64,000 nt of DNA from Entoloma clypeatum (lineage: Eukaryota > Basidiomycota > Agaricomycetes > Agaricales > Entolomataceae). The DNA lies in contig OY751492.1 in NCBI GenBank assembly GCA_963565915.1, positions 2,294,001 to 2,358,000 of the forward strand. The letters are read 5' to 3'. The notes beneath the pieces were generated by a model. The model was not told where the DNA came from. It searched no databases and saw nothing but the letters and a program-made list of their open reading frames with translations. Of this stretch, positions 1,179-48,998 are shown one piece after another (position 1 is the stretch's first letter; each line of letters starts with the position of its first letter). Made by a program: the position numbers and the translations under genes.

Positions 1179-4100
1179 CTAGATCGAAGGAAGAAAACCC
1201 GTAGACTGCCAATAGCACAACCACTTGTCTATCTCTTCGGGAACAAGTCTCGTTACACTCCCTGCTCTGAAAGCTGGGGAGGCAGCTAGGGTTTGGCGGA
1301 AATCCAGGTTGGGAACAGCCATAGCATCTCTCGTATCACTTTCTTTCAAGACAACGTCTCTATAGAACCCGAGTATCTTTGCGGCTGGAATGGACGACAA
1401 GTCGGCAGTTGATGACTGGGCAAGGCCTTCCAAGGTTTCTACCCATGAGACGTACGGCCGGAGGGGAAGCTTCAGTATTTCGCCGATGGTGCTGAAAACG
1501 TCATGGCTAGATACAGGTCGAGGATGCACCAGATGAGCGGTTGCAGATGGGATGTTGGCAGAACGAAGTTCTAGGAAAGTCTCGGCCGCGAAATCCAAAG
1601 GAACCCACGACGCAGTCTTCAAATATAGATACTGCTGAGGAAGCATGATAATCAAAGACAGAGCAAACGTACTCCTCGAATATCCGGAAGAAATCCCATC
1701 TTCAAACTTGATTTGACGATTGCTGGCATCCAGTCTGAAGAGTTCCAACACCCATTGATTCCGCCGCTGACCTGGCCAAGTCGCACGACAATGGGGCGGA
1801 GAGCCGTGGTCTTCGCTGCTTCGTAGAGGATGTGCTCTGCCACCCACTTTGATTCGGCGTAACCATTGCCGAGTGGAACGCTGGGATCCTCAATCGGAAC
1901 TTCCGGAATAGGCTCCTCAGGAATATTATCTACCGGACAGGTCAACCTGGTCCTTGAAAGTGTAAATTTGGGATATCATACTTCTAAATATTCCAACAGA
2001 ACTTGCGAACAGAAGTCTTGGGGGTGCCGCTTTTGGGGAAGAAAGAGCTAGGTCAACTAGGGAACGGACGCCGTCAATAACCTTCCTAAAAGAGATAAGC
2101 GACAAGTTGAAATCGACACGCCATGCTGCGGGTCGTCAGACTTCATGTGTCTATTCAACGGGAACAAAACTCACCGATATGGAAGATGTGGGTGACGGCC
2201 GCACGCATCTGCTTTCGAGGTTGGACTGAGTGGATTGTACTCGGAAGGCTGGGAAGAAAACTTGCCTCCTCTAGAAGCGCAGGACCTATTATAAGGCCAT
2301 CTTTAGTCAGATCGCCTTCGACAAGTGTCACCTTGGCGTACTTCGCAATCTTCGGGTCGTATCCTCGCGATGCCAAAGCCTCTTCTTGTCGCTGTAAGAT
2401 ACCGACGTTCTCGGAGGATCTGTTCAAAGCGTAGATTCTTTCGACAGAATCACACGCTACAAGTTTCGCTAGTACCGCAGTCCCCAGTGCTCCAGTAGTC
2501 CCTGTTATGAGAACGACATCGAAGGAGCCTGACTTGGCACCTTCAACGCCTCTGTGTGCAGGGAAATTCGCAATGTAAGGTGCCAAAAAAGACTTTAGAT
2601 CTTCCCTGCGGACTACTCCGTTGTTCAAGTCCTGCTTGTCTGGATTGTGAGGGTTGCTCTTCGAAATGATATGGTTTGCAAGCGACCAAATGGTTGGGTG
2701 TTCGTATATGAAACTTGAAGGTAAGTCCGTCTTTGTCGTCGATCTGACAGCCTGAAGAATCTTCTGTCTTATCCACATTGCTTGCAAACTGTGGATGACT
2801 TTGTCATGAAATCTTCGGGGTACTCATCCACGCCTCAGGCTCACCTGTCACACCCCTTATCAAAGATATCTTCATTGTCTTCTGCGGGAGTCTTTAAGAC
2901 CTCATTTACGACGGATCGGATAAAATCGAGTAAAGTTTCTGCCGTCCATTCCAATGGAGCTGTAGTATTGGAGCCTTTCTCTAGATCGGCGTACAACCCT
3001 TCTATTTCAGCACTATAGTTTGATAGTATGACCGAGCGACGTGGACTGCCTTTCGCATTGAAGAGAAACGGCTTGGAAGAACTTGCAACTATGATCATCT
3101 GTACAATAAGCCGCCTTTAATCACCATCAAATGATGCCAGACGTTGAGGATGTCACCTCTTTGAATAGACGGGAATGTGTCGGAGCGGTTGCATTCATTG
3201 CTTCCATGTAAGGCCTCCATTGTTCAAATTAGATACTTATACTCAATCAGATATACAGGAGAGGACGTACTGCATGGTATTCCGAAATGCTTTTAGTTTG
3301 TCAACATCTTGAGGATCAAAATAGTGCTTGTTCTTTATCTCTATGAGGACACCGATTTGGAACTTTCCGCGGCCGAACATGACGAGTGACGATATGTGTG
3401 GGTGTTGACCTAAGATAGCCTCTATCAAAACAAGCGACATGAGATGATATAGTGAGTGGTATTGCGAAGTTCTCCTACCTAACGGCCCAGGGTTTGTCTT
3501 CATCATGAATCTCGTAAGTCATGAAAGGCGGGTGGATGGAAAAGTTGAACACCTTTTCGCCAGTACTGAGAGTGATTTGATCATCTAAGCGACCCAAAAT
3601 CTTCCATTTTCCTGGTTCGGTAGGGTGGGGAGCGACCAAATCACTTGACGCATATGCTGGTTCGCCTTTGAATGTTGTATTGAGCACCGCAAGCTCTGTA
3701 GTGGCTCTTGCCTACGAATACACTTGGTCGCTGCTCTACTCATGAAAGTTTGTCACGTACAACTGCGACAAGTTCATATGTACCATCACCAAGGGCAACA
3801 AATTCCACTGCACATTGAGGGTTTATATAGAAATATTCCCAATCAAGTCCCGGATGATCTGTCGCCAAATCAACCAAGGAGACATCGATGCCATTGTGAC
3901 TTACCAGGGAATACATAACTATATGGACCCGTTTCGGACCTATGTATACGTGAGACGAAGGCAGATGATCAACAACATGCGAAGACTTACGCGCCACATA
4001 ATATATAGATTGCAACTCCTTCCCTTGCAAGATAGTCTCCGACGGCTTTTGACAGAGGAGCTCCGCCAAATATCTAGAGATGTCAGCGTCAAGATTGAAG

Positions 4101-33818: not shown

Positions 33819-34214
33819 TGTTGAGAATACATTCTAGACAGATGTCTCAACAGTCAATCACATGTCTATAGACATGAGTATTCCCATATGGAGTTACATA
33901 TGGAAGTGTTCTAGACTTAGAACAATCTAGACTCGCTCTAGATCCCTGACTCATTAGATATGTGTCAGACGTGCATAACATATGTCATGTTATGTCACAT
34001 CATGTGCTTGTCACACTATATGACTATAAGTCACATATTACCATATATGTGAGTTTATAGTTCTGCGACAGAACTCAGTTTGTACTTGTTTGTACATGGT
34101 CTGTGCGCATCCTTGTAGGTATAAATACTTGATGTATCTGTATCTACAATAACAGGACTTTTACGAAGTACCTTCATCACTCAAGCTCTCTCTTCTTACC
34201 TCCAATGTGAGTAC
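33819..34214 (+). repeat. Left LTR of element B, first part (interrupted by element C)
   Basis: TGTTGAGAATACATTCTAG to CCAATGTGAGTAC, identical in layout to 46641-47036. It continues at 41202-41243 (CTTACCCAGG to TGTTCAATA). The LTR ends TG...TA rather than TG...CA. Confidence 0.88.
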
Positions 34215-34770
34215 TGTTACACTTTTTCACCCTTTTCCTACGCACCCTCACACGATCCTTCAACCCTTGATTTCCCATCATCCCCGTTTCACTTAACTCC
34301 GACGACCCTGGGACATGTGTCCCCTCTACCAGCGCTATGACTCATACTGACTCGGACTATTCCCCTTTTAGATACATTTTCACTCGTTATCTCTGACTCA
34401 CGGCCTCGCGACCTTATCTCTGACTCTTATGCCACAACCCCTGAAAACACCTATCTAACCAATGGCTTATTTAGCTCCTGCGCAGCACCTACTTATTTAT
34501 AGCTATAGGATAACGTATATAAGACCTGTAACCTTAGAGTAGAGGTCTTCAGCTTGACCTAGGCAAACAACGCTTATTTGTCTACTACTTCGAACGCTCT
34601 CAAACTAAGTGCCTTGCGAGGACTTAGCTCTGCTTGACCCGAACCGAGTCGTCCTTCTGAGGAACTCGCTGATTGACCAAGTCGACCTATTGAGGGACTT
34701 GTTGTGGAACCAGTTCGAACCCACGTGATCCGATCTGTTGAACTTGTTGTTGTAGGCTATCGCCGTAACA
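34215..34770 (+). repeat. 5' LTR of element C
   Basis: TGTTACACTTTTTCACC to GCCGTAACA, TG...CA ends. It contains a TATA box TATATAA at 34516-34522. The expected transcript start is about 30 bases downstream, near 34547-34550. Confidence 0.95.
34516..34560 (+). promoter_or_regulatory. Core promoter and presumed transcript 5' end of element C
   Basis: TATATAA at 34516-34522 followed 33 bases later by TCAGCTTGACCT (34549-34560). This 12-mer is the exact complement of AGGTCAAGCTGA at 34773-34784, just inside the LTR, as expected if the transcript's own 5' end primes reverse transcription. Confidence 0.65.
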
Positions 34771-34772
34771 AA

Positions 34773-34784
34773 AGGTCAAGCTGA
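34773..34784 (+). other. Putative self-priming primer-binding site of element C
   Basis: AGGTCAAGCTGA starts 2 bases after the 5' LTR and is perfectly complementary to 34549-34560 in the R/U5 part of the LTR. No tRNA 3'-end complement (TGG-start) is seen at this place. This is the arrangement used by Tf1/sushi elements. Confidence 0.65.
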
Positions 34785-35064
34785 TCAACGTCGTCAACCC
34801 ACCGCGGTTTTAGACGCAAAGATTCTTCCCCGACGATCCACCTTTGGAGTCCCGTCCGACTCAGAAGACGAACAGGAGTTCGTTGACGCACCTATCACAC
34901 CACGACCACCGCCGACACCGTACAGAAGAGTAACCTCCTCTTTCGTACCAGTCAACCCCACATCACCCTCTTACCTCTCTCCGAGACGAAACCCACCGCC
35001 GCCAGCTGCTGCTGTTGCTGCATCCAGACCGACCCCAGACACCCCAAAGACCCCACTTGTAGAA

Positions 35065-35967
35065 ATGACTTCTCAAGTAAAGACCCCAGAAAAAGAAATC
35101 AAGATCAGCCCGCCGACGATCTTCAATGGAGATAGAAGGAAACTATCTGAATTTTTGTTTGACGCAAACCTATATCTGGAAATGAACGATGACATTTACA
35201 ACTCCGACAAGAAAAAGATCCTCTTCACCGTTTCGTACATGAAAGGAGGAACTGCCGGGCCATGGAAGGAGTCCTGGTACAGGGACATCACTACCGCTGG
35301 AGTCACTGTGTATCCGAAGTACGCAGACTTCATCGCGAAACTGAGGAAGTCGTTTTCCCCGGTTGACAAGGAAGGAGACGCGTTGACAATGATGAAAACG
35401 CAAAAAATGGAAGGCATGACAGCCGACGAATTCGTGGAGAAATTCAAGTTATGGGTTTCAGAAAGTCTGATCACAGAAGAAAGATCCCTTGTGGATTACT
35501 TCATGGAGGCGTTACCACACGCGCTCCGAGACAAGATCTTGGGCCTTGACAAAATCCCAAAAACAATCGACGAATGGTACACCACGGCGTCCAGATTGGA
35601 CAACCAGTGGAGAAGAGCGAAAGCAGTCGCTCAAAGACTCAGACCTGATGGGGGAAAGAAAAAGTTCAAAGTGAACTATAACCCCGCACCCCGAAACGCG
35701 CATTTCGCCCCAGACCCTAATGCCATGGACATTGACCGGCTGACTGCCGAAGAAAGAGATGACCACTTCAAGAAAGGGTTATGCTTCGTCTGCCACCAGG
35801 CAGGACACCGTGCCGATGCACACAAAGGAGGAAAAACCCCGGTTGCGAACAATACGTTCAAAAAAGCATCCGATGCATATGCCCATATCCGAGGCATTTT
35901 CAAGGACTTACCAAATGAGGAACAAGACGCCTTGATCTCCGAAATGGAGAAACAGGGTTTTCAATAA
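35065..35967 (+). CDS. Gag of element C
   Basis: 300 aa from ATG 35065 (MTSQVKTPEKEIKISPPTIF), stop TAA 35965-35967. It contains a retrotransposon capsid block (KMEGMTADEFVEKFKLWVSE) and one CCHC zinc knuckle, CFVCHQAGHRADAH, in which the fourth ligand is His rather than Cys. The frame is open upstream back to the LTR edge at 34771 without an ATG (a Pro/Arg-rich stretch), so translation could begin earlier at a non-AUG codon or the upstream part could be untranslated. Pol begins 14 bases after the gag stop in another frame. Confidence 0.9.
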   Translation: MTSQVKTPEKEIKISPPTIFNGDRRKLSEFLFDANLYLEMNDDIYNSDKKKILFTVSYMKGGTAGPWKESWYRDITTAGVTVYPKYADFIAKLRKSFSPVDKEGDALTMMKTQKMEGMTADEFVEKFKLWVSESLITEERSLVDYFMEALPHALRDKILGLDKIPKTIDEWYTTASRLDNQWRRAKAVAQRLRPDGGKKKFKVNYNPAPRNAHFAPDPNAMDIDRLTAEERDDHFKKGLCFVCHQAGHRADAHKGGKTPVANNTFKKASDAYAHIRGIFKDLPNEEQDALISEMEKQGFQ

Positions 35968-35981
35968 AGCGGCCTGTACCG

Positions 35982-38900
35982 ATGTCAGCCCCCGCTCAGT
36001 TTTCAATCTCCCTATCACCTGTAATTGTAGCCGACATGAATGACAAATCTTTTTCGATCCCCATTTCAATGTCAGGAGAAGGAGAAAGCATCGATGAAAA
36101 ACTAAAGATAAATGCCCTGATAGACTCAGGAGCAGGAGGAACCTTCTTGGACCAGAAGTTCGCCACAGCTAACCGAATGGAGCTTATCCCGCTACTAAAG
36201 CCCATTCGTGTGTTCAATGTGGACGGAACAAAGAACAAAGAAGGAACGATCACCCATTGTACATGGAAGAAAATCTGGATCGATGACAAAGAACTCGACG
36301 TCAGATTCTTGGTAACTGGACTTGGAAAGGAAACCGCCATTTTGGGTTTACCCTGGTTAAAACAATACAACCCGAAGATTGATTGGGAAAGAGGAACCTT
36401 GGATATTGAAACTATCAGGTTCAAGAAGACTCTGGCAGGGGTCATGAGGAAGAAATTTGATGAGCTCTTGGCATCAAAAGACAAAAAACCCATTGCAATC
36501 GCAGCATGGATGAAAGAAGAACCTAAGAAGATCTTCGCAATGATAGAAGAAATTGATGATGAAGAGACCCTTAAACCAAGGAAGGAGACTCTACCGGTGA
36601 ATGGACCTATCCTGAAAAGGATAGATGAAGGATCAGACGATGACCTCGACCTATTCAGGACATATGTCACAACGGACGAACCCATTGAGGATGTTTGGAT
36701 CCAAGCCAAAACCTCGATCTCCCAGAAACTCTCACACAACACGGACACCGCGGACAAACCAAAGAAAGAACTACCAGAACGATATGAGCAGTATCAGAAG
36801 GTGTTCGAGAAAACGGCATCTGAGAGATTACCGGAACATAAACCATGGGACCACGCAATTGACTTAAAACCAGACTTCACCCCGAAAGACTGCAAGGTTT
36901 ATCCTTTGTCACCGGAAGAACAAACTAAATTGGATGAATTCCTTGATGAGAACCTTCGAAAGGGGTACATCAGACCCTCGAAATCACCAATGGCATCACC
37001 TTTTTTCTTCGTGGCTAAAAAGGACTCGGATAAACTCAGACCCTGTCAAGACTATCGGCGATTGAACGAGGGAACAGTAAAAAACGCATACCCGTTGCCC
37101 CTGGTTGGAGATTTACTGGACAAACTGAAAGGAGCAAAGGTCTTTACCAAACTGGACATGCGTTGGGGATACAACAACGTACGGATCAAACCTGGCGACG
37201 AATGGAAGGCTGCATTCAAAACCAATCGAGGGTTGTACGAACCCTTGGTTGCCTTCTTTGGGCTGGCAGGCATGCCACCCACGTTTCAGGCGATGATGAA
37301 TGAAATCTTCAAAGAAGAGCTCGAAGAGGGATGGCTGCTCATTTATTTGGATGACATCTTCATCTTCTCGGTCAATGACAAAATCGACACTGAACGAACG
37401 CTCCGCGTACTAAGAAAAATGATAGAGAATGACCTCTATCTCAACCTGGAAAAATGCGAATTTGGAGTCAGGCAGTGCGAATACCTCGGACTGATTATCA
37501 AAGAAAACGAAATCGCAATGGACCCCGTTAAGTTATCGGGGATAGCAAAATGGCCAGAACCCACGACTGTCAAGCAAGTCAGATCTTTCCTCGGGTTTGG
37601 AAACTTCTATCGAAGATTTATCGGACACTACTCGGACATTGCCAAACCTCTGAATGATCTGACCAAAAAGGATCTAGAGTGGGAATGGAATGAAGACTGC
37701 CAGACGGCATTCAACACATTAAAGGACAAATTCGCGGAATCACCGGTCTTGCTCATGCCAGACACTGGCAAACCATTCATCATAGAATCTGATGCATCCA
37801 AATGGGCGACAGGAGCAGTACTGCGCCAGCAAGATGTAAATGGAGACTGGCACCCCTGCGGATATATATCGCACTCGTTCTCTGCGCCAGAGCGGAACTA
37901 TGAGATCTATGATCGGGAACTCTTGGGAATTATCCGAGCACTGGAAACCTGGAGGCACTACCTCCTTGGATCACCGTTTCCAACAGTTGTTCTATCAGAT
38001 CACAAGAACTTAACGTATTACCGGGAACCCCAGAAATTGAACAGACGACAAGCACGGTGGAGATTGTATCTCTCCGAGTTTGAACTCAAACTAGTGCATA
38101 CCCCAGGATCGAAGATGATCCAGTCTGACGCCTTGTCAAGGCGACCGGACCATATACCCGAAGAGGACACCGATAACGAAGACGTTATTGTCTTGCCAAA
38201 TGACATTTTTGTCAAAACAGTGGACCTTGAGCTACAAGGAGATATTCTAAAAGCAACCGAAAATGATGAGCTTTTCTCGAAAGCCATCACTGCCCTAAAA
38301 GAATCGGGAACGCCACCGATTAAATCTCATTTATCAGAATGGAGAACAGAAAACGGAATATTATTCTTCCGTGACAGATGTTACGTACCACCAGATGAAA
38401 CTCTGCGCCGGGAGATAACGAAACGATACCATGATTCCCTACCAAGCGGACATCCGGGACATCTAAAAACCCTGGAACTAATCAGAAGAAACTATTGGTG
38501 GCCAGGAATGTATGTGTTTGTCAAAAATTATGTTGGAGGATGTGCAACCTGCCAACAAATGAAAGTCAACACACACCCCACAAATCCTGGATTAATGCCG
38601 ATCAAAGCACAAAAAGACGCTAGACCATTCTCTCAAACGACGATCGACTTCATTACGGACTTACCCGAGAGCAACGGGTTTGACAGTATCATGGTCGTAG
38701 TAGACCATGGTTCTACGAAGGGGGTAATTTCCATCCCTTGCATGAAAACCACCGACGCGACCCTTACTGCCAAGCTTTATTTGGATCACGTATACCGAAG
38801 ATTCGGACTCCCAGACTCCATTCTGTCTGACAGAGGGCCGCAGTTTGCCTCTCAGGTCTTCAGAGAACTAGGGCGACTCCTAGGGATCAAACTAATGATG

Positions 38901-39674
38901 AGCACGGCTTATCACCCTCAGACTGATGGGGAAACGGAACGAGCAAATCAGGAACTTGAGATCTATTTCCGGATGTTCTGTTCGAACAATCCTGAAACAT
39001 GGCACGATCATAATTCAACAATGGAGTTCTGTCACAATCAAAGAACTCATTCCACGACGAAATGATCCCCGTTCTATCTGATGATGGGATACGAACCAAG
39101 AGACATACCATTGGCATTCGACAAGACAAACGTGCCAAGCGTAGAAGAACGGCTCAAAGAGCTGAAACAAGCAAGAGATGAAGCGCTGGCAGCACACGAA
39201 CTAGCCCGTCAGATGATGGCTGAAAGGTCAACACGAGGTTTCGCTCCGTTTGGAAAAGGAGAACAGGTATGGCTAGAAGGAAAGAACCTCCGAATCGGAT
39301 ACCCTTCCAGAAAACTGGCACCCAAAAGAGAAGGACCCTTCACCATTTCCGAGGTGCTTGGACCCATGACGTACAAACTGAAACTTCCAGAACAATGGAA
39401 GATCCACCCCGTTTTCCACGCCTCCTTGTTAACACCTTATCGGGAAAATGACACACACGGACCGAACTTCCACAACCCACCTCCTGATCTGATCAAAGGA
39501 GAACACGAGTACGAAGTAGAAGCAATCCTCACCCACAAGCGACAGGGCAGAGGGTACAAATATTTGGTCAAGTGGATGGGATACCCATCAAGCGATAACA
39601 CGTGGGAACCCGAATCCAACTTAAAAAGAGCCCAAGAAACGCTGGAATACTACAAACAGACCCACCACCTTTGA
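35982..39674 (+). CDS. Pol of element C (protease, RT, RNase H, integrase, chromodomain) with an in-frame TGA
   Basis: ATG 35982 starts MSAPAQFSISLSPVIVAD. Protease ALIDSGAGGTF (residues ~45-55). RT: TKLDMRWGYNNV, FFGLAGMPPTFQAMMN and the catalytic YLDD in LIYLDDIFIFS. RNase H: IESDASKWATGAVL. Integrase zinc-binding HHCC region GHPGHLKTLELIRRNYWWPG with CATCQQMK, and the catalytic D,D,E blocks TTIDFITDL, SILSDRGPQF and HPQTDGETERANQ. The frame meets TGA at 39063-39065 just after the integrase core, then continues in the same frame for about 200 codons: GPX-like and C-terminal integrase sequence and a chromodomain (EYEVEAILTHKR, YLVKWMGYPSSDNTWEPES), stop 39672-39674. The stop would remove the chromodomain unless read through. 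Confidence 0.93.
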
Positions 39675-39699
39675 ACCCAACCACCCACATCCTCTCATC

Positions 39700-40599
39700 A
39701 TGACCACCGTTTTCGATACCGCCACCAAGGAACTTCACCGACACCGCCTCTTTAGGCTCCTGACCGAACCAGAACACAATGACAGAGTGCTGCGGCACAT
39801 TGACGATGAGACTGACCAATTCTTGGTCAACACCTTGTTCGGGCTAATCACCCTCCGCCAGTTCCACTACGACACCACCGCCAATATTGCCCGACTCATT
39901 GAAGGACACATCGACACGCTCCTGGACCGAGGTGTCTACCAACAGTTTGCAAGGCTGTTCCATAACCGCACAAACACTCCCGATGTCGCCCTCCTCGACC
40001 CACCCGTAGAGAACCCTATTCTGACCACTCCCCTCCCTGATCTTGCCACCACCCCTGAACCGACCCCCATCCCTGATCCAATTCCCCTTGTTGTCAGGAA
40101 CCCTGACACCCAAATCACTCCGTCCTCTCCCGAAACCACGTCGCCCTTGACCAGCGACCGAAGCCTTTCCGACGTCAAGACCGACGTCAAGGGAAAGAAG
40201 AAATCCTATGGAGTTGTTAAACGCTCCAGAAGAAAAACCACACGCACCATCATGTCTATTCCATTAGGGCATGGATCATCATCCCAAACTCCCATCGATC
40301 TCACCAACGAACCCGATGACCTTGGCTATGAGGTTGACACGCATGGACGAGCTCACTCCCCAAGCGGACCTTGGCGTCGTCCTGCTGGATGGCCACATAT
40401 AGACAAAGGGCGCAAATGCGGCCTTTGTGCTAGGGCAGATGGACACATTGAGTGTCAATGCGGATACTATGTATGTCAGAAGTGTTGGAAGAAGGCACCC
40501 GGACACTACGATTACGAGTGCTTGGGCCCGGGTTATGCAGCGCTGGAGGATGACCAGTACGAGTTTGACGAAGACGCCATACACAACATGGCAACTTGA
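39700..40599 (+). CDS. ORF3 of element C: accessory protein with Cys-rich zinc-binding module
   Basis: 299 aa, starting 26 bases after pol (MTTVFDTATKELHRHRLFRL) and ending just before the 3' polypurine tract. Residues ~1-90 look helical and soluble (HIDDETDQFLVNTLFG). A long Pro/Thr/Asp-rich linker follows. A basic cluster GKKKSYGVVKRSRRKTTR looks like a nuclear localisation signal. TPIDLTNEPDD resembles a SUMO-interacting motif followed by acidic residues. The C-terminal module has Cys at CGLC, ECQC, VCQKC and a later EC, plus GH: eight possible zinc ligands in about 35 residues, RING/treble-clef-like. There is no signal peptide or membrane span, so it is not an env protein. Standard chromoviruses have no such ORF; I do not know a named family. 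Confidence 0.8.
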   Translation: MTTVFDTATKELHRHRLFRLLTEPEHNDRVLRHIDDETDQFLVNTLFGLITLRQFHYDTTANIARLIEGHIDTLLDRGVYQQFARLFHNRTNTPDVALLDPPVENPILTTPLPDLATTPEPTPIPDPIPLVVRNPDTQITPSSPETTSPLTSDRSLSDVKTDVKGKKKSYGVVKRSRRKTTRTIMSIPLGHGSSSQTPIDLTNEPDDLGYEVDTHGRAHSPSGPWRRPAGWPHIDKGRKCGLCARADGHIECQCGYYVCQKCWKKAPGHYDYECLGPGYAALEDDQYEFDEDAIHNMAT

Positions 40600-40640
40600 A
40601 AACATTGAAGCCGGTGACTTCAAGCATAGAAGGGGGGTAA

Positions 40641-41196
40641 TGTTACACTTTTTCACCCTTTTCCTACGCACCCTCACACGATCCTTCAACCCTTGATTTC
40701 CCATCATCCCCGTTTCACTTAACTCCGACGACCCTGGGACATGTGTCCCCTCTACCAGCGCTATGACTCATACTGACTCGGACTATTCCCCTTTTAGATA
40801 CATTTTCACTCGTTATCTCTGACTCACGGCCTCGCGACCTTATCTCTGACTCTTATGCCACAACCCCTGAAAACACCTATCTAACCAATGGCTTATTTAG
40901 CTCCTGCGCAGCACCTACTTATTTATAGCTATAGGATAACGTATATAAGACCTGTAACCTTAGAGTAGAGGTCTTCAGCTTGACCTAGGCAAACAACGCT
41001 TATTTGTCTACTACTTCGAACGCTCTCAAACTAAGTGCCTTGCGAGGACTTAGCTCTGCTTGACCCGAACCGAGTCGTCCTTCTGAGGAACTCGCTGATT
41101 GACCAAGTCGACCTATTGAGGGACTTGTTGTGGAACCAGTTCGAACCCACGTGATCCGATCTGTTGAACTTGTTGTTGTAGGCTATCGCCGTAACA
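40641..41196 (+). repeat. 3' LTR of element C
   Basis: Same length (556 bp) and, as far as I can read, the same sequence as 34215-34770; preceded by the purine tract AGAAGGGGGGTAA. Confidence 0.95.
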
Positions 41197-41201
41197 AGTA
41201 C

Positions 41202-41243
41202 CTTACCCAGGCTTCCCTGCGTATGTAGGTGTGCTGTTCAATA
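41202..41243 (+). repeat. Left LTR of element B, second part
   Basis: CTTACCCAGGCTTCCCTGCG to TGTTCAATA; together with 33819-34214 it makes 438 bp, equal to the right LTR. Confidence 0.88.
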
Positions 41244-41258
41244 GGTTATGGGCCCCGG
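41244..41258 (+). other. Primer-binding site of element B (half initiator-tRNA type)
   Basis: GGTTATGGGCCCCGG directly follows the LTR. It is complementary to the anticodon stem-loop side of initiator tRNA-Met (GGGCYCATAACC), the half-tRNA primer known from Drosophila copia. The identical 15-mer is found in the full-length copia at 56057-56071 on the other strand. Confidence 0.75.
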
Positions 41259-42516
41259 TTTGCCCGGTACAGTCTGCGCACTCTAATGGAGTTGCTGCAA
41301 CTGTCTAGCCTGTTAGATACTAACCTGGCCTAGCCAGTGAGCGCGAGTCTTAAAAGCGCCCTTTTGGGCTGCTACCGCCTCTTTAGCTAGTAGCATAGAC
41401 TAGTCTAAGTTAGTTATCTGGTTTGATACTCGGAGGTTCCAGACTAGTGAGCGCCCTTAGGGCTGCACCTAGTTCTGATGTCCAAGACTAGCAAAGCGCC
41501 CCTAGGGCTGCATCTAGTTCTTGATCTAGACTAGGGCCTTTTATGGCCTATGTCTATATTTGGACATTTTGTATAAAGCCTGTGGCTTGAGCGCCTTGAT
41601 AGGCGGCCGCCACACCCCTGTGAAAAACCCTCTCTTGTATCTGCGCCTTCATTTGGCTGCGATCTAGATTTGGGGTTTTCTCACGCTGTGTCATGTCCTG
41701 TCTGGCATTTGGTTTCAAAACCAAATTGAGTATATCTCGATGTGCTGACATTCGGACATTACGATTCTCAGGAACTTTCTGTTCCGTGAACTTTTTCGTC
41801 GATCGATCTTGATCCATTGCACCCTGTACCTGATGAAAGCACCCTTTCCGGGTTGCCTCAGGGACTTCCCATTTTTATGGTTGCACGATCTCAGATTTGA
41901 TGCTGACTCAAAATCGTTCCTAGATGAAAGGATCTTGCATCTGCTTCCATTATGGTTTCATTCAAGCAAACCATTGGTCACACCGTGACATCCGCGTTAT
42001 TCAGCGTGATGACGGTTTCCACAGACGACACCTCTGTACTCTGAATTGCATGGTCACACCACGCATTCGGAAGGTGAAAGTCACGCAACTGCGATACGGA
42101 CGGCATGCGCGCCATGTCTGTACTCGCAAATGTGGAAAGAAAAAAGCAGTATGTATCCCCATCTACATTCTCTTCATTCGTTGAACTATGACTCTAGGAT
42201 CCCTGGGCGCCACGCCCAAGTAACATCCGGAGAGCTCGAACGAGGGACTTACCGTCCCCCTTCAATCATAGTGACGAAGAAGAAAGGAGAATCACACCCG
42301 AGGTTACACCCGGGGTAATAAAGATGGAGCAATCGCCTGATCTATAGGCGACCGTCTTTATGTAAATACCACAGCATTGTGACCCCTAGTCACATAAATA
42401 AAGGCTATTACATAAACTCTCTCTGACATGTGTCACAAAACAATTCAGACAATACCTCTTATCGGTTCAAATTGGTCTTGAATATTTGCTGACCACTGTT
42501 TCTTTTAGAAACAAAC

Positions 42517-43380
42517 ATGTCTTCAATCACTTCTTTGATTGCTGTTCCCGTTCTTAACGGCACAAACTACCCTGAGTGGGCGAACACCATGTGTTCGTTC
42601 CTTAGATCTCAGGATTTGTGGCAAATTGTTGATGGTGCTGAGAAGCGACCCTTGATGTCTGCTAACCTTACAAGGAAAGCCCATACAACTAAAGTCAAGG
42701 CATGGAACATTAGGGATCAAATGGCTTTAGCCAATATTCGACTTCGTGTCGACCCGTCGATCAAACTCACCAAAAATATGTCTTCTGAGACTTGGTTTGA
42801 GTTGAAGAATAGGTTCGGACGAGCTGTTTATAAAACAGTTCTGTTTGACATTCGTGCTGCATTGTCCTTCAAACTTTCTATGAAGCGACAACCTGCAACC
42901 GAGATTGATTATCTTGATAAAATCTTTGATCATCTCGGCGCACATCATTCTATTTCTCCATCGACTCGGGCCCTAATGCTTCTATCTGCCCTCCCGTCTC
43001 CTGATTGGGATGACTTTGCCATAGAAACCCTTCTTTACAATGATGATCTCACCTATGATAAGGTTCGAGAGTTGATTGTTGAAACATACAATCATCATCG
43101 TGTTGACCCTGTTCCCGATTTGTCACTTGAGGATTACCTTTACGGCATAGGTATCTCCTATGATCCTCAACCGACATCGTGCGATGTTTTTCATCGGCCG
43201 TTTCGGAACTTATGGAGAAAGAAGTCTTTCTTATCTGCACCAGCAGACCCTGGTGCTCTGCGCTACTCTAGCTGCGTCGCCGGTCTGGTGCATGATGCCG
43301 TCATAACAGAACAATGCAAGGGTCCACCCGTCGACAATTACGACATAGCGTTTCCACGCCTGGACCTTATAACAGCATGA
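42517..43380 (+). CDS. Gag-like protein of element B (copia/UBN2-type)
   Basis: 287 aa from ATG 42517 (MSSITSLIAVPVLNGTNYPE). The N-terminal block LNGTNYPEWANTMCSFLRSQ and the middle (IDYLDKIFDHLGAHHSI, RALMLLSALPSPDWDDFAIE, LTYDKVRELIVETYNHHR) follow the copia gag (DUF4219/UBN2) pattern. No CCHC zinc knuckle is present. After about residue 225 the sequence no longer resembles gag and includes a hairpin unit at 43260-43275. It is the only element-type protein in B. Conservation of a single uninterrupted gag frame in an element without pol suggests selection for gag, as in TR-GAG elements; it may package the B transcript. Confidence 0.8.
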   Translation: MSSITSLIAVPVLNGTNYPEWANTMCSFLRSQDLWQIVDGAEKRPLMSANLTRKAHTTKVKAWNIRDQMALANIRLRVDPSIKLTKNMSSETWFELKNRFGRAVYKTVLFDIRAALSFKLSMKRQPATEIDYLDKIFDHLGAHHSISPSTRALMLLSALPSPDWDDFAIETLLYNDDLTYDKVRELIVETYNHHRVDPVPDLSLEDYLYGIGISYDPQPTSCDVFHRPFRNLWRKKSFLSAPADPGALRYSSCVAGLVHDAVITEQCKGPPVDNYDIAFPRLDLITA

Positions 43381-46069
43381 TCATTGTGTAGAACGATTGT
43401 ATTTTCTTTCTTTGCAATCAATACATTGATTTGCAATGTGTTCATATTTTGAACGAAAGAAAGAGAGATTTAAAAATGCAAATGCATTTTATGTTCAAAT
43501 AACTTATATCCAATCTGGAATAATTCCAATAAGTTGGATGTGCCGTTGAGCCACCTACTATAAAGGAAACAGCTTAATAAGCTTGTCAAGAAGACTGCAC
43601 GAGTCATTAATTTGTCTTTCTGCTGCGTCTATCTTTCCTTTTCAGGAATTAATATTCCACCTTATATTGGATAAGACAGAAAGTAATATTGTATTTGTGC
43701 GCTATGGCATTTGCATAACACTAATTCTGCGCCTTGATAGGCTGCGATAGTGTTCAGAATTGTCATTCTGGCTGCCAATATATAATACTTTATTATGAGA
43801 AGAAGAGTTTTCCAACCCTTCAATCTAAATCGATTCAAATTGGTCTAGCCAACCAATCTTGTTCCTCCACTCTTTCACCAAAAGTAGTGATGATTTGGGG
43901 CAATGCAAAGCTTCTTATCTGAACTCTCCATTTCTTGCATGGGAATGATCTCTGATGCATCTTGCGCCTTTTAGGCTGGCATTGCATTTTGACTTATAAG
44001 GCATTTGCGCTTTAATCAAGCGGCGATGGCCTTGTCAACAGAATCATATAGGGATGACCGTGATGGTACACACCCTATGGCAAAAATGGATATAGTCAAA
44101 AAATCAGATTGTATCACAGCTTACAAATATTGCTGGAATAAATCGCCTGAGAGTAATTACCTCAGCATAACTTGGAGAGTAATTCCTCCGCAGTTCGCGA
44201 TTATTTTTTCTGCATGAATTTCTGGTTTCCCAACCAAGTTCTGCATCTATTTCAGTATATGCTCTTTGAAAGCCAAAGATACATGGGAAATGATTGCCAT
44301 ACTTGACTGTGAAAAGGGGGAGAATATAGAGAAGCATTTTAAATGGCAGCATTCTGCGCTATTTGCTTTGCGATACCATTGCTAGAAGACTGATCTTTGA
44401 TCTTTTGATCTCACCATCAGATGCATTGCTTCGTATACAACACTCTATAGGTTGTACCATTAAAGGAGCGCCGTGACCGCTGCATACTTATCAAATGGTC
44501 AACTTGAACAAAAGAAAAAGCTTATCCCAGCTTATACCCCTATGATTTCTCACCCAGAAACGATGAATTCTGGATAAAAGAGAATATTATATGAATCGAT
44601 CCGTTAGTCTTATCAGACTATTGTTGGGTTCTATTCCCAAGTATATCTTCTATGATTACTTGATGAAGCATCTTAATTGATGGCTTACTAATAATGCATT
44701 AATTTGCATTATATGGTTCTTGGAATACCAAGATTACTATTGATTGCATGAAACGCATCAGAGTGCTTGTTACACTCTGGAGATTTGGATCAACCCATCA
44801 TCTGATCTGCGCCTTGTTTTGGCTGCGACAATGATCTGGTTCTTGCATTGAGTAGAGCGCCTGTGTTGGCTGCCTCCTTTGACAAAACAAGACCAAATAA
44901 CACCCTCACGCGTTATTGTTGTATCATGCAACGAACATAGTAAATCTGTGTTGATGTCTTAGAGTGGATTCTCTATTGACCTCTGAACATAAATCGGTTG
45001 TTCACCAACATAAGTATTACCAACTACAAAAGAACTACATCGCAAGTCATTTATTTGACTATAATCTGCAATATTGCTTGCACATCATCACATATAACAG
45101 TTGGCTTAATTGTCTATAAAATCTGTAAAATGTACTCCATGGAATTGGTTTTCAGGGGGAGATAATTCATTCTCTGTTAATCCTAAAACAATCCACATGA
45201 TGTTTGCTTGTCTAGCCTTTGCATAACAATGTGCGCCCCTTTGGGCTTGCCACAGTTACTAGGCTTGATTATATCTGCGCTCAAATAATGGCTGCAATAT
45301 TAATCATTGCGATTATATTTTGCAATAGCTTGGATAGTACGTCAGACGATATGGGAAACGATGACGGAACTACCAGCTGTCTCAGATATTATATTCTGAA
45401 GACTCAACGTCCACTATGACGATAAACTAGACCCTACTCCGGAACAGAGCATAAACTACCACAGTGGACTCTGAACCTAACTAGTTCATCCACATCCCTG
45501 AAGTCTGGAGTATTACACTCGACTCAGATGACATTATCTATAAGCGCATCTAAAGTGTTGCCATGATAATATTACATACTCAGGATAAAGGCACCCTGGT
45601 CTAAATCCATGGTTGTTAGCGCCTTATTTGGCAGCTTCCCAGAGTATTAATAAGCTATTTATAGCTTAGATCATGCCAAGCATGATATCATCAGTTGGTT
45701 AAATGACCCTTTGAGCCAGATCAAGTCTAACGAGCTCTTAATTGAGTTATGTCTTCTGACTTATCCCCGGCCTTAGTGCCACATGCTCTTTCCATACTAG
45801 TTCTTGCGCTACTACTGGCTGCAACTACTATGTGATCCATAAAACTGAGTACCACTATGTCTTGAGCGCCTTCTTGGGCTGCCTGCATTGGTAGTCTCAT
45901 TTTTGTGTGAATCATGGTCAAAACCATTGATACTCGTCTGGAATGACAATAAACTATCACACGTGGTTTGCTGATGCAATCAGGCCAAACACCTGACTCA
46001 GCATGGTCCGTGCGAGATAGGCAAAGCCTTAAATACGCTCCTCAAAAGGAATTTTAGAGCAGGCTTCCA
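43381..46069. other. Non-coding interior of element B
   Basis: About 2.7 kb, AT-rich, with stops in all frames and no polymerase remnants that I can recognise. Its only visible structure is the dispersed hairpin family. Confidence 0.6.
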
Positions 46070-46267
46070 ATGGCATTCTTCGCCTACTTCTCCACCGCCT
46101 TTTACACTCGCTTCGCACATGCCGACCAGTTGGCGCATGTTGCCTCGACCGACGCCAGCAGCACCACCACCACCACCACTACTGCAGCCTCCGCCGCTGC
46201 TTCTTCATCATCCTCTGGCAATAACACTGCCACGACCACCGACGATAAGACGTCGGAGAAGAAGTAA
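46070..46267 (+). CDS. Small GC-rich ORF in element B, possible captured host sequence
   Basis: 65 aa: MAFFAYFSTAFYTRFAHADQ, then a Thr/Ala/Ser-rich run and the acidic-basic end DDKTSEKK, stop at 46265-46267. Base composition is clearly GC-richer than the flanking AT-rich element DNA, and third positions are mostly C or G as in host genes. The hydrophobic N-terminus could be a targeting peptide. No hairpin unit falls inside. It could be a transduced host exon or a small accessory protein; function unknown. Confidence 0.45.
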   Translation: MAFFAYFSTAFYTRFAHADQLAHVASTDASSTTTTTTTAASAAASSSSSGNNTATTTDDKTSEKK

Positions 46268-46640
46268 AGTAGTTAGTGGTACAAAGTAATTAAAATAATC
46301 AATTACTTCAGTGGCTGCTCTAAGCGCTACACTAGGCTGCTTCAAGCGCCATTAATGGCTGCATGTTTATTGCGCTATTTCATGTCTCTCAAAGGTATTT
46401 TTATCCTTTGATGATCTATTGATCTCAGATTGACTTCTGATGAGACCTGTCTATTCTTGTTTTGGAATTAGACTCATGGGTCTCTGATAAGACCTTAAAT
46501 GACAGCGTATGCTAAACGACACAGCAGATCCCCTTTAGCGCCCTTACGGCTGCTGCCATTTATTTTGGCTCTTCACTAGGACTTGAATGTCTTCTTGTGA
46601 GCAAGTATTGAAACCTGACGGAATCACACTTGAGGGGGAG

Positions 46641-47078
46641 TGTTGAGAATACATTCTAGACGGATGTCTCGACAGTCAATCACATGTCTATAGACATGAG
46701 TATTCCCATATGGAGTTACATATGGAAGTGTTCTAGACTTAGAACAATCTAGACTCGCTCTAGATCCCTGACTCATTAGATATGTGTCAGACGTGCATAA
46801 CATATGTCATGTTATGTCACATCATGTGCTTGTCACACTATATGACTATAAGTCACATATTACCATATATGTGAGTTTATGGTTCTGCGACAGAACTCAG
46901 TTTGTACTTGTTTGTACATGGTCTGTGCGCATCCTTGTAGGTATAAATACTTGATGTATCTGTATCTACAATAACAGGACTTTTACGAAGTACCTTCATC
47001 ACTCAAGCTCTCTCTTCTTACCTCCAATGTGAGTACCTTACCCAGGCTTCCCTGCGTATGTAGGTGTGCTGTTCAATA
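46641..47078 (+). repeat. Right LTR of element B
   Basis: 438 bp, TGTTGAGAATACATTC to TGTTCAATA. Three differences from the left LTR noticed (two near its start, one near position 220 of the LTR). Confidence 0.9.
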
Positions 47079-48798: not shown

Positions 48799-48998
48799 NN
48801 NNNNNNNNNNNNNNNNNNNNNNNNNNNNNNNNNNNNNNNNNNNNNNNNNNNNNNNNNNNNNNNNNNNNNNNNNNNNNNNNNNNNNNNNNNNNNNNNNNNN
48901 NNNNNNNNNNNNNNNNNNNNNNNNNNNNNNNNNNNNNNNNNNNNNNNNNNNNNNNNNNNNNNNNNNNNNNNNNNNNNNNNNNNNNNNNNNNNNNNNNN
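48799..48998. other. Assembly gap of 200 N
   Basis: Exactly 200 undetermined bases inside the left arm of element D, probably a placeholder size. Confidence 0.98.

Follow-up and report, generated by a model that had tools for sequence, protein, structure and literature searches.

Element B and its bulged hairpins

The window analysed here is a 64,000-nucleotide stretch of the genome of the basidiomycete Entoloma clypeatum (contig C11, 2294001-2358000; the genome comprises 60.1 Mb in 20 contigs). It contains a long terminal repeat (LTR) retrotransposon, called element B in this work, whose interior spans positions 41244-46640. Two LTRs, a primer-binding site (PBS) and a copia-type Gag without pol fit a non-autonomous, gag-only copia LTR element of TR-GAG-like type. 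TR-GAG elements have a gag-like open reading frame (ORF) as their sole coding part. Along the interior of B lie about 20 small hairpins with a bulged stem, all on the sense strand (Table 1). We regard this strand-specific family of RNA hairpins as real. The units are likely stem-loops of the B sense RNA, judging from the sequence and presuming that B is transcribed. Many stem-loops with a common feature would then lie along B, on the assumption that one transcript spans all of them.

The exact pattern GCGC[C/T]-N4-9-GGCTGC matches the window 13 times, always on the plus strand and always in B (41356-46553). Shuffled sequences give an expectation of 0.21, and none of 100 shuffles reached 13. 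A relaxed pattern, applied to the whole window, finds 18 matches on the plus strand, all in B, and two on the minus strand (46327 and 46349). Taken together, the relaxed readings give 18-21 units in B. The initial annotation had proposed some 20 units, on one strand and confined to B, and this picture holds by the exact pattern, the relaxed readings and the covariance model described below. Its list of units grows by those at 41276 and 45233, and perhaps by one at 41839. To its statement that the units avoid the main part of the gag ORF it has to be added that unit 43260 lies within the 3' end of gag.

In a free scan, only the outer GC/GC and the 3' T bulge were fixed and the three inner pairs were left unconstrained. 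The sense strand of B gave 20 hits against a shuffle mean of 2.5 (largest value 7), some of the 20 surely arising by chance. The antisense strand of B gave 1 against 1.9 expected, and the neighbouring element A gave 3 against 1.0 expected (largest shuffle value 6). No excess was seen in the remaining 50.5 kb, with 21 and 19 hits per strand against about 19 expected.

A covariance model of 47 positions and seven pairs was built from 18 training sequences, namely 17 B units and the first unit of an autonomous copia family, called C, that is presented below. Alignments A1 and A2 omit units 41276, 41839, 43964 and 45233 (odd bulge or variant), and A2 also omits the second C unit. The model gives 18 matches in the window at E ≤ 1, all on the plus strand and all in B. 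Sixteen of them are training units and two lie outside the training set (41824, E 0.46; 45231, E 0.92), while training unit 46324, which overlaps 46346, is missing. Genome-wide, the motif has 554 + 487 matches, compared with 196 + 179 for a reversed control. Another copia element in the window, at 50.6-56.4 kb, contains no units by the exact pattern or the covariance model, and Rfam has no match in the window at its gathering score. A tandem repeat was also considered and discarded, none being present in the B interior.

Table 1 Features of element B and its surroundings (window coordinates)
Feature	Position	Strand	Basis
5' LTR of element B, part 1 (split by element A)	33819..34203	+	300-nt direct repeat 33819/46641, 99%
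Element A, Ty3/gypsy-type, inserted into B 5' LTR; outside the feature studied	34204..41196	+	LTR pair 34204/40630
End of B 5' LTR	41197..41243	+	47-nt repeat, 100% with 47032-47078
B PBS GGTTATGGGCCCCGG; identical 15 bases in C	41244..41258	+	at LTR border
Extra unit near PBS, A-T in place of C-G	41276..41298	+	by eye; inner part scanned at 41278; present in copies
Unit GCGCCCTTTTGGGCTGC	41356..41372	+	exact pattern, covariance model
Unit	41451..41466	+	exact pattern, covariance model
Unit	41496..41511	+	exact pattern, covariance model
Unit, G bulge	41591..41607	+	relaxed pattern, covariance model
Unit	41643..41660	+	exact pattern, covariance model
Possible further unit	41839	+	tentative
gag ORF, 287 amino acids (aa), copia type	42517..43380	+	PF14223 3.7e-11, PF13961 1.1e-6
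Unit, T-A third pair, within gag 3' end	43260..43275	+	relaxed pattern, covariance model
Unit, 7-bp outer arms AACACTA/TAGTGTT	43729..43745	+	exact pattern, folding, covariance model
Unit, 2-nt bulge TG (TA in other copies)	43964..43980	+	relaxed pattern; neither in model nor found by model
Unit, T-A third pair, G bulge (A in many copies)	44007..44024	+	relaxed pattern, covariance model
Unit	44809..44826	+	exact pattern, covariance model
Unit	44857..44873	+	exact pattern, covariance model
Unit, TT bulge	45233..45250	+	covariance model E 0.92; present in copies
Unit, T-G third pair	45277..45295	+	exact pattern, covariance model
Unit, A bulge	45619..45635	+	relaxed pattern, covariance model
Unit homologous to C unit 2 (L071 384-400)	45806..45822	+	alignment, structure comparison
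Unit homologous to C unit 1 (L071 298-313)	45866..45882	+	alignment, structure comparison
Second ORF, 65 aa, starts MAFFAYFSTAFYTRFAHADQLAHVAS	46070..46267	+	ORF comparison across loci
Unit	46324..46340	+	exact and relaxed pattern
Unit	46346..46362	+	exact pattern, covariance model
Unit	46538..46553	+	exact pattern, covariance model
3' LTR of element B	46641..47078	+	direct repeat

Shape and pairing of the units

Folding shows that a unit consists of a near-invariant bulged G+C tip (GC-GCY...RGC-bulge-GC) atop longer complementary arms. The arm sequence is private to each unit, yet self-complementary. The 5-bp stem that was first described is present as the tip; the units themselves are longer and have unique complementary arms. 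Four pairs are invariant in the 18 aligned tips (17 B units and C unit 1). The third inner pair is C-G in 13 rows, T-G in three and T-A in two, in agreement with the stem changes reported initially. Pairing of the first loop bases, also proposed there, was borne out in 11 of the 18 rows, where the fourth tip pair forms, and fails in the other seven. The 3' bulge is mostly T, as annotated, and otherwise A, G, C, TT, TG or TA; its position is constant and its letter variable.

In a swapped-arm test, the 5' flank of each unit was paired with the 3' flanks of all other units. With 18 units, own arms pair better, and 0-1 of 100,000 permutations were as good. After removal of three flank-sharing neighbours, 0-23 of 100,000 permutations were as good for the 15 units left. 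With random anchors in B, P is up to 0.003, and in the hairpin-energy form of the test none of 20,000 permutations was as good.

Below the tip, the pair -2:+1, which lies outside every search pattern, is Watson-Crick in 12 of 19 units and occurs in all four kinds (permutation P 0.0008; 0.085 once corrected for 64 offsets). Across the 18 aligned rows it is paired in 12 and unpaired in six. The alternative pair -1:+2 is formed in 13 of 19 units (P 0.013). The two pairs are mutually exclusive, so the lower stem may take either register. At the pair positions of the model, 89.7% of the cells are paired, compared with 81.6% in shuffles, and the covariation score is 0.259 compared with 0.126; in both cases none of 500 shuffles was as high.

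Copies of B and a diverged subfamily

At no fewer than 36 places of the genome, the window included, there is a full-length match to a 1.94-kb piece of B with 95-100% identity; this is a lower bound from 40 of 114 candidates scored. The gag ORF is free of internal stops in 27 of the 30 best gag rows. Other copies of B without the units had been named initially as a finding that would speak against an RNA element. The units are kept in the 29-37 deduplicated B copies compared per unit, and in the subfamily B2 described next their positions are mostly changed or gone. Of the sites compared in recent B copies, variants shared by at least three copies affect 4 of 190 in stems, 9 of 114 in loops, 3 of 21 in bulges and 54 of 1520 in flanks. 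Stems are hit less than loops (P 0.02).

Two loci, L069 and L070, are older diverged copies, with gag 69% and 67% identical to that of B. They are 85-90% alike and, within alignable blocks, 75-89% alike to B. L069 has five units at E ≤ 0.003, all sense, plus one antisense match at 0.04; L070 has units at E 0.0002 and 0.05, both sense. In L069 (diverged copy X), the arms of B unit 41451 are retained, and the fourth tip pair is G-C where B has C-G. In the consensus structure, X70 and B41451 share 20 identical pairs, with one single change, one double change and no break.

A second hairpin class also occurs in B2, GCTGAGC..GCTCGC, whose T bulge lies on the 5' side. It has 39 + 39 genome matches (78), compared with 8 + 8 (16) for the control. 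L069, whose sense is the minus strand, carries it at sense positions 186, 345, 3699 and 4876, private arms being clear at 3699 and 4876. Among the matches listed, there is no support for second-class hairpins near the PBS of an autonomous family.

Separately, GCGCYGGTTAWTCCGGCTGC is found in 14 copies in an unassigned repeat (C1:742866, C1:3068101 and 12 others). It has the same bulged geometry as the units with a longer inner stem.

Units on both sides of the PBS in an autonomous copia family

The exact tip GCGCCCTTTGGGCTGC occurs 247 times in the genome (reversed control, 0), often in pairs about 6.4 kb apart among the matches listed. A 700-base piece of family C (L071) shares cis signals with B: its LTR U3 (unique 3') region is 77% like that of B, the LTR end including the PBS is 83% alike over 42 nt, and it carries units. 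C unit 1 ends 20 bases upstream of the PBS and C unit 2 begins 50 bases past the PBS start. Only these two PBS-flanking units were found within the 700 bases. C unit 2, held out of the model, is recovered at E 5.3e-7 in 10.2 kb.

At least 29 of the 40 C leaders scored are followed by an RVT_2 match at a distance of 4.85-6.04 kb, in most cases 4892-4895 bases, a lower bound since 80 of 150 RVT_2 rows were compared. A stop-free open frame of 1745 aa is present in 24 of the 150 RVT_2 rows. C is therefore a copia family that still encodes its polymerase. Among the matches listed are five complete C copies; four have no exact unit beyond one per LTR and the fifth has one more.

Unit-by-unit comparison of B with C shows compensated changes. 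Between C unit 1 and B45866, 15 pairs comprise ten unchanged, two with single and three with double changes, and no break. Between C unit 2 and B45806, the 13 pairs of the consensus structure, which omits two arm pairs not formed in C, comprise 11 unchanged and two with double changes, again without a break. Under random-mutation nulls, energy and double changes are jointly matched in 0-1 of 1000 trials for the first comparison and 34-57 of 1000 for the second. By itself, compensation between C and B is suggestive; it is strong only in combination with the arm test. The RNA nature of the units, as first proposed, is well supported by single orientation, self-matching arms, compensation between families and detection of the held-out C unit. 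Both PBS-flanking hairpin segments of C have likenesses in region 45765-45882 of B, where their order is swapped, suggesting capture via recombination or template switching.

The PBS itself is less telling. Its 15-base string has 868 exact genome matches (control, 0), probably reflecting one primer common to many copia families, and was dropped as a link specific to B and C. We take the PBS of B and C to resemble a match to the tRNA-iMet anticodon loop.

Other features of the locus

The repeat coordinates alone imply a 5-bp target duplication around B. In the B Gag, no CCHC zinc knuckle was seen on inspection by eye, and 644 candidates yielded no relative at E 0.001 among 5.8 billion proteins. 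Besides gag, the interior of B (41244-46640) holds no ATG-started ORF of at least 120 aa and, on that basis, neither integrase nor reverse transcriptase. The description of B as gag-only stands at that size; the second, 65-aa ORF has to be added to it. The same ATG opens an ORF of at least 61 aa in 30 of 30 B loci examined, and also in L070, where the first 27 codons show three synonymous and two other changes. The N-terminal part is kept across the 30 loci and the C-terminal end differs through frame changes. The ORF was not placed in L069, where its start string was not found.

Upstream, the gag-type ORF of element A matches Pfam DUF4939 and, with a score under the cut-off of that family, Ty3_capsid. 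An additional ORF of 299 aa (39700-40599) lies downstream of the element A pol. Its C-terminal part is cysteine-rich and it has no Pfam match at E 0.001. A run of N of about 200 bases occupies positions 48799-48998 of the window.

Interpretation of the hairpin array

At a probability of about 0.5, our preferred reading is that the units are RNA recognition sites, probably for particle capture, which are shared by related copia-type LTR elements and have been multiplied in the dependent element B. They would be recognised by a protein that gathers genomic RNA into particles, which may be the Gag or Gag-Pol of C or the Gag of B. A leader unit of a C-like ancestor would have multiplied in B, and the B RNA would offer many capture sites to machinery that B does not encode. 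Protein binding, dependence of B on C and the direction of multiplication are what we infer from comparing the sequences. Packaging, Gag binding and capture had been listed as possible roles in the initial annotation, and they gain weight because the autonomous family C has units on both sides of its PBS. More tentatively, B may outcompete its helper through the number of its signals: with the PBS-flanking hairpin multiplied about tenfold on private arms, the B RNA would win the particle protein. As part of this same tentative proposal, the differently bulged hairpin class of B2 looks as if the recognised shape had switched.

A number of observations weigh against recognition sites. The median unit energy is reached by 26% of random anchors in B. 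In the alignment, both-side pair changes (242 of 500 shuffles) and further pair types (152 of 500) are no better than in shuffles. In recent B copies, stems are not significantly quieter than flanks for variants found in at least three copies (P 0.40), and when every variant is counted, the share of affected sites is no lower in stems (29 of 190) than in loops (17 of 114) or flanks (180 of 1520). Stem conservation in recent copies was consequently set aside, as it holds against loops only. Unit positions turn over between B and B2: thirteen of 19 B units, a set that includes a weak unit near 44467, lie outside the blocks alignable between the two (P 0.0003; 0.014 with the gag block left out). 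In a hand list of nine arm pairs for C unit 2 and B45806, two pairs that form in B fail in C. The strictest null, with letters redrawn and sites kept, is as good in 58 of 1000 trials for C unit 1 and B45866 and in 144 of 1000 for C unit 2 and B45806; if double changes without breaks are the sole criterion, 51-287 of 1000 trials reach it. None of 38 distant gag rows falls inside the 40 listed C copies (136 of 1145 candidates scored), and the B Gag is thus without detected likeness to the C Gag. Finally, both C units sit in an open frame that crosses the PBS, so coding constraint acts on them as well.

Somewhat doubtful, though the best placed of the alternatives, is that the hairpins are real and serve another role, such as in the stability or nuclear export of the RNA, in translating gag or the small ORF, or in silencing, which they might evade or attract. 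The structural evidence (arms, compensation, model and held-out C unit) suits such a role equally, and the units are scattered through the B interior rather than restricted to the leader. The two C units, on the other hand, flank the PBS, a region of packaging, dimerization and priming signals in Ty1, Ty3 and human immunodeficiency virus 1 (HIV-1) (PMC5454406, PMC11381356; here and below, as far as the accessible parts of the cited papers go).

A micro-repeat, selfish or neutral, that spread by template switching in reverse transcription and has the bulged palindrome as a by-product is an improbable source of the units. The swapped likenesses of the C leader units at 45765-45882, together with the location of most units in gaps that cannot be aligned between B and B2, would fit such a repeat. 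Its copies should share their arms, whereas the observed arms are private and self-complementary; the single orientation of all units and the compensated changes between B and C also speak against it.

Very unlikely is an origin in coding, as a relic or a side effect, in which the tips would be Ala-Leu-Leu-Leu-Ala-Ala or Ser-Ala-Leu-Trp-Ala-Ala codons belonging to an ORF upstream, like that of C. Both C units do lie within one open frame (L071 273-698; 142 aa to the end of the piece), which begins before the PBS with a hydrophobic start (MPSYRYILSALWAAYV...FALLLAAS) and for which 77 candidates gave no relative at E 0.001 among 5.8 billion proteins. Positions 45765-45823 of B, read in one frame, still yield a near copy of part of this peptide. 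The B interior, however, has no ORF of at least 120 aa besides gag, B unit lengths of 16-19 make a common reading frame impossible, and the self-matching arms would be left unexplained. Chance or composition, which would ask for nothing beyond G+C-rich patches, is rejected by the shuffles (13 against 0.21 expected), the reversed controls (554 + 487 against 196 + 179; one exact tip 247 against 0) and the free scan.

Comparison with known systems

Besides the viruses cited in this section, satellite tobacco necrosis virus (STNV) and parechovirus are reportedly further cases of dispersed packaging signals. RNA viruses can assemble via many dispersed stem-loops that share one feature, and in MS2 the recognition feature of the packaging stem-loop includes a bulged base (PMC6281560). 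The B stem-loops resemble such signals in sharing a small feature and differing elsewhere. The viral signals act with a coat protein that the virus itself encodes, and binding or cross-linking has been used to test them, whereas B is an LTR element known from sequence alone; what its stem-loops share is a bulged G+C stem, in place of the loop letters of the viral signals (PMC6281560).

Hairpins at the 5' end hold packaging, dimerization and priming signals in copia-class and retroviral RNAs (PMC5454406, PMC11381356). The Ty1 helper and mini-Ty1 system is like B and C in its 5'-end hairpins in a copia-class RNA and in the mobilisation of a dependent element in trans; Ty1 has a pseudoknotted domain with two kissing hairpins, and B about 20 dispersed similar hairpins (PMC5454406). 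Barley BARE2 is a non-autonomous copia family that is packaged in BARE1 particles and conserves packaging and dimerization signals. BARE2 is unable to make Gag, whereas B retains a gag ORF, lacks pol and has its putative signal multiplied (PMC3735527). Because of these 5'-end signals, the dispersed viral stem-loops and the BARE2 precedent, we read B as a possible multiplier of the capture site of a C-like helper.

Like TR-GAG elements and large retrotransposon derivatives (LARDs), B has LTRs, a PBS and a long non-coding interior; compared by description only, the accessible accounts of those elements mention no hairpin array (LARD: PMC3411680). Fungal Helenus, which are dependent LTR elements, and Copia families have a common PBS matching the tRNA-iMet anticodon loop. 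Helenus LTRs contain a tRNA-like sequence, and B instead has gag and hairpins (PMC10886601). Searches of the open-access literature on hairpin arrays and on LTR helper packaging brought up no such array.

Little is firmly established about which sequences package LTR retrotransposon RNA, as stated for Ty1 and Ty3 (PMC5454406, PMC11381356). The roughly 20 near-identical tips on differing arms, shared with the PBS-flanking pair of C, offer a ready-made collection of variants from which to work out the recognised shape. The array of B could also reveal by what means a parasite that lives on another parasite comes to have an advantage.

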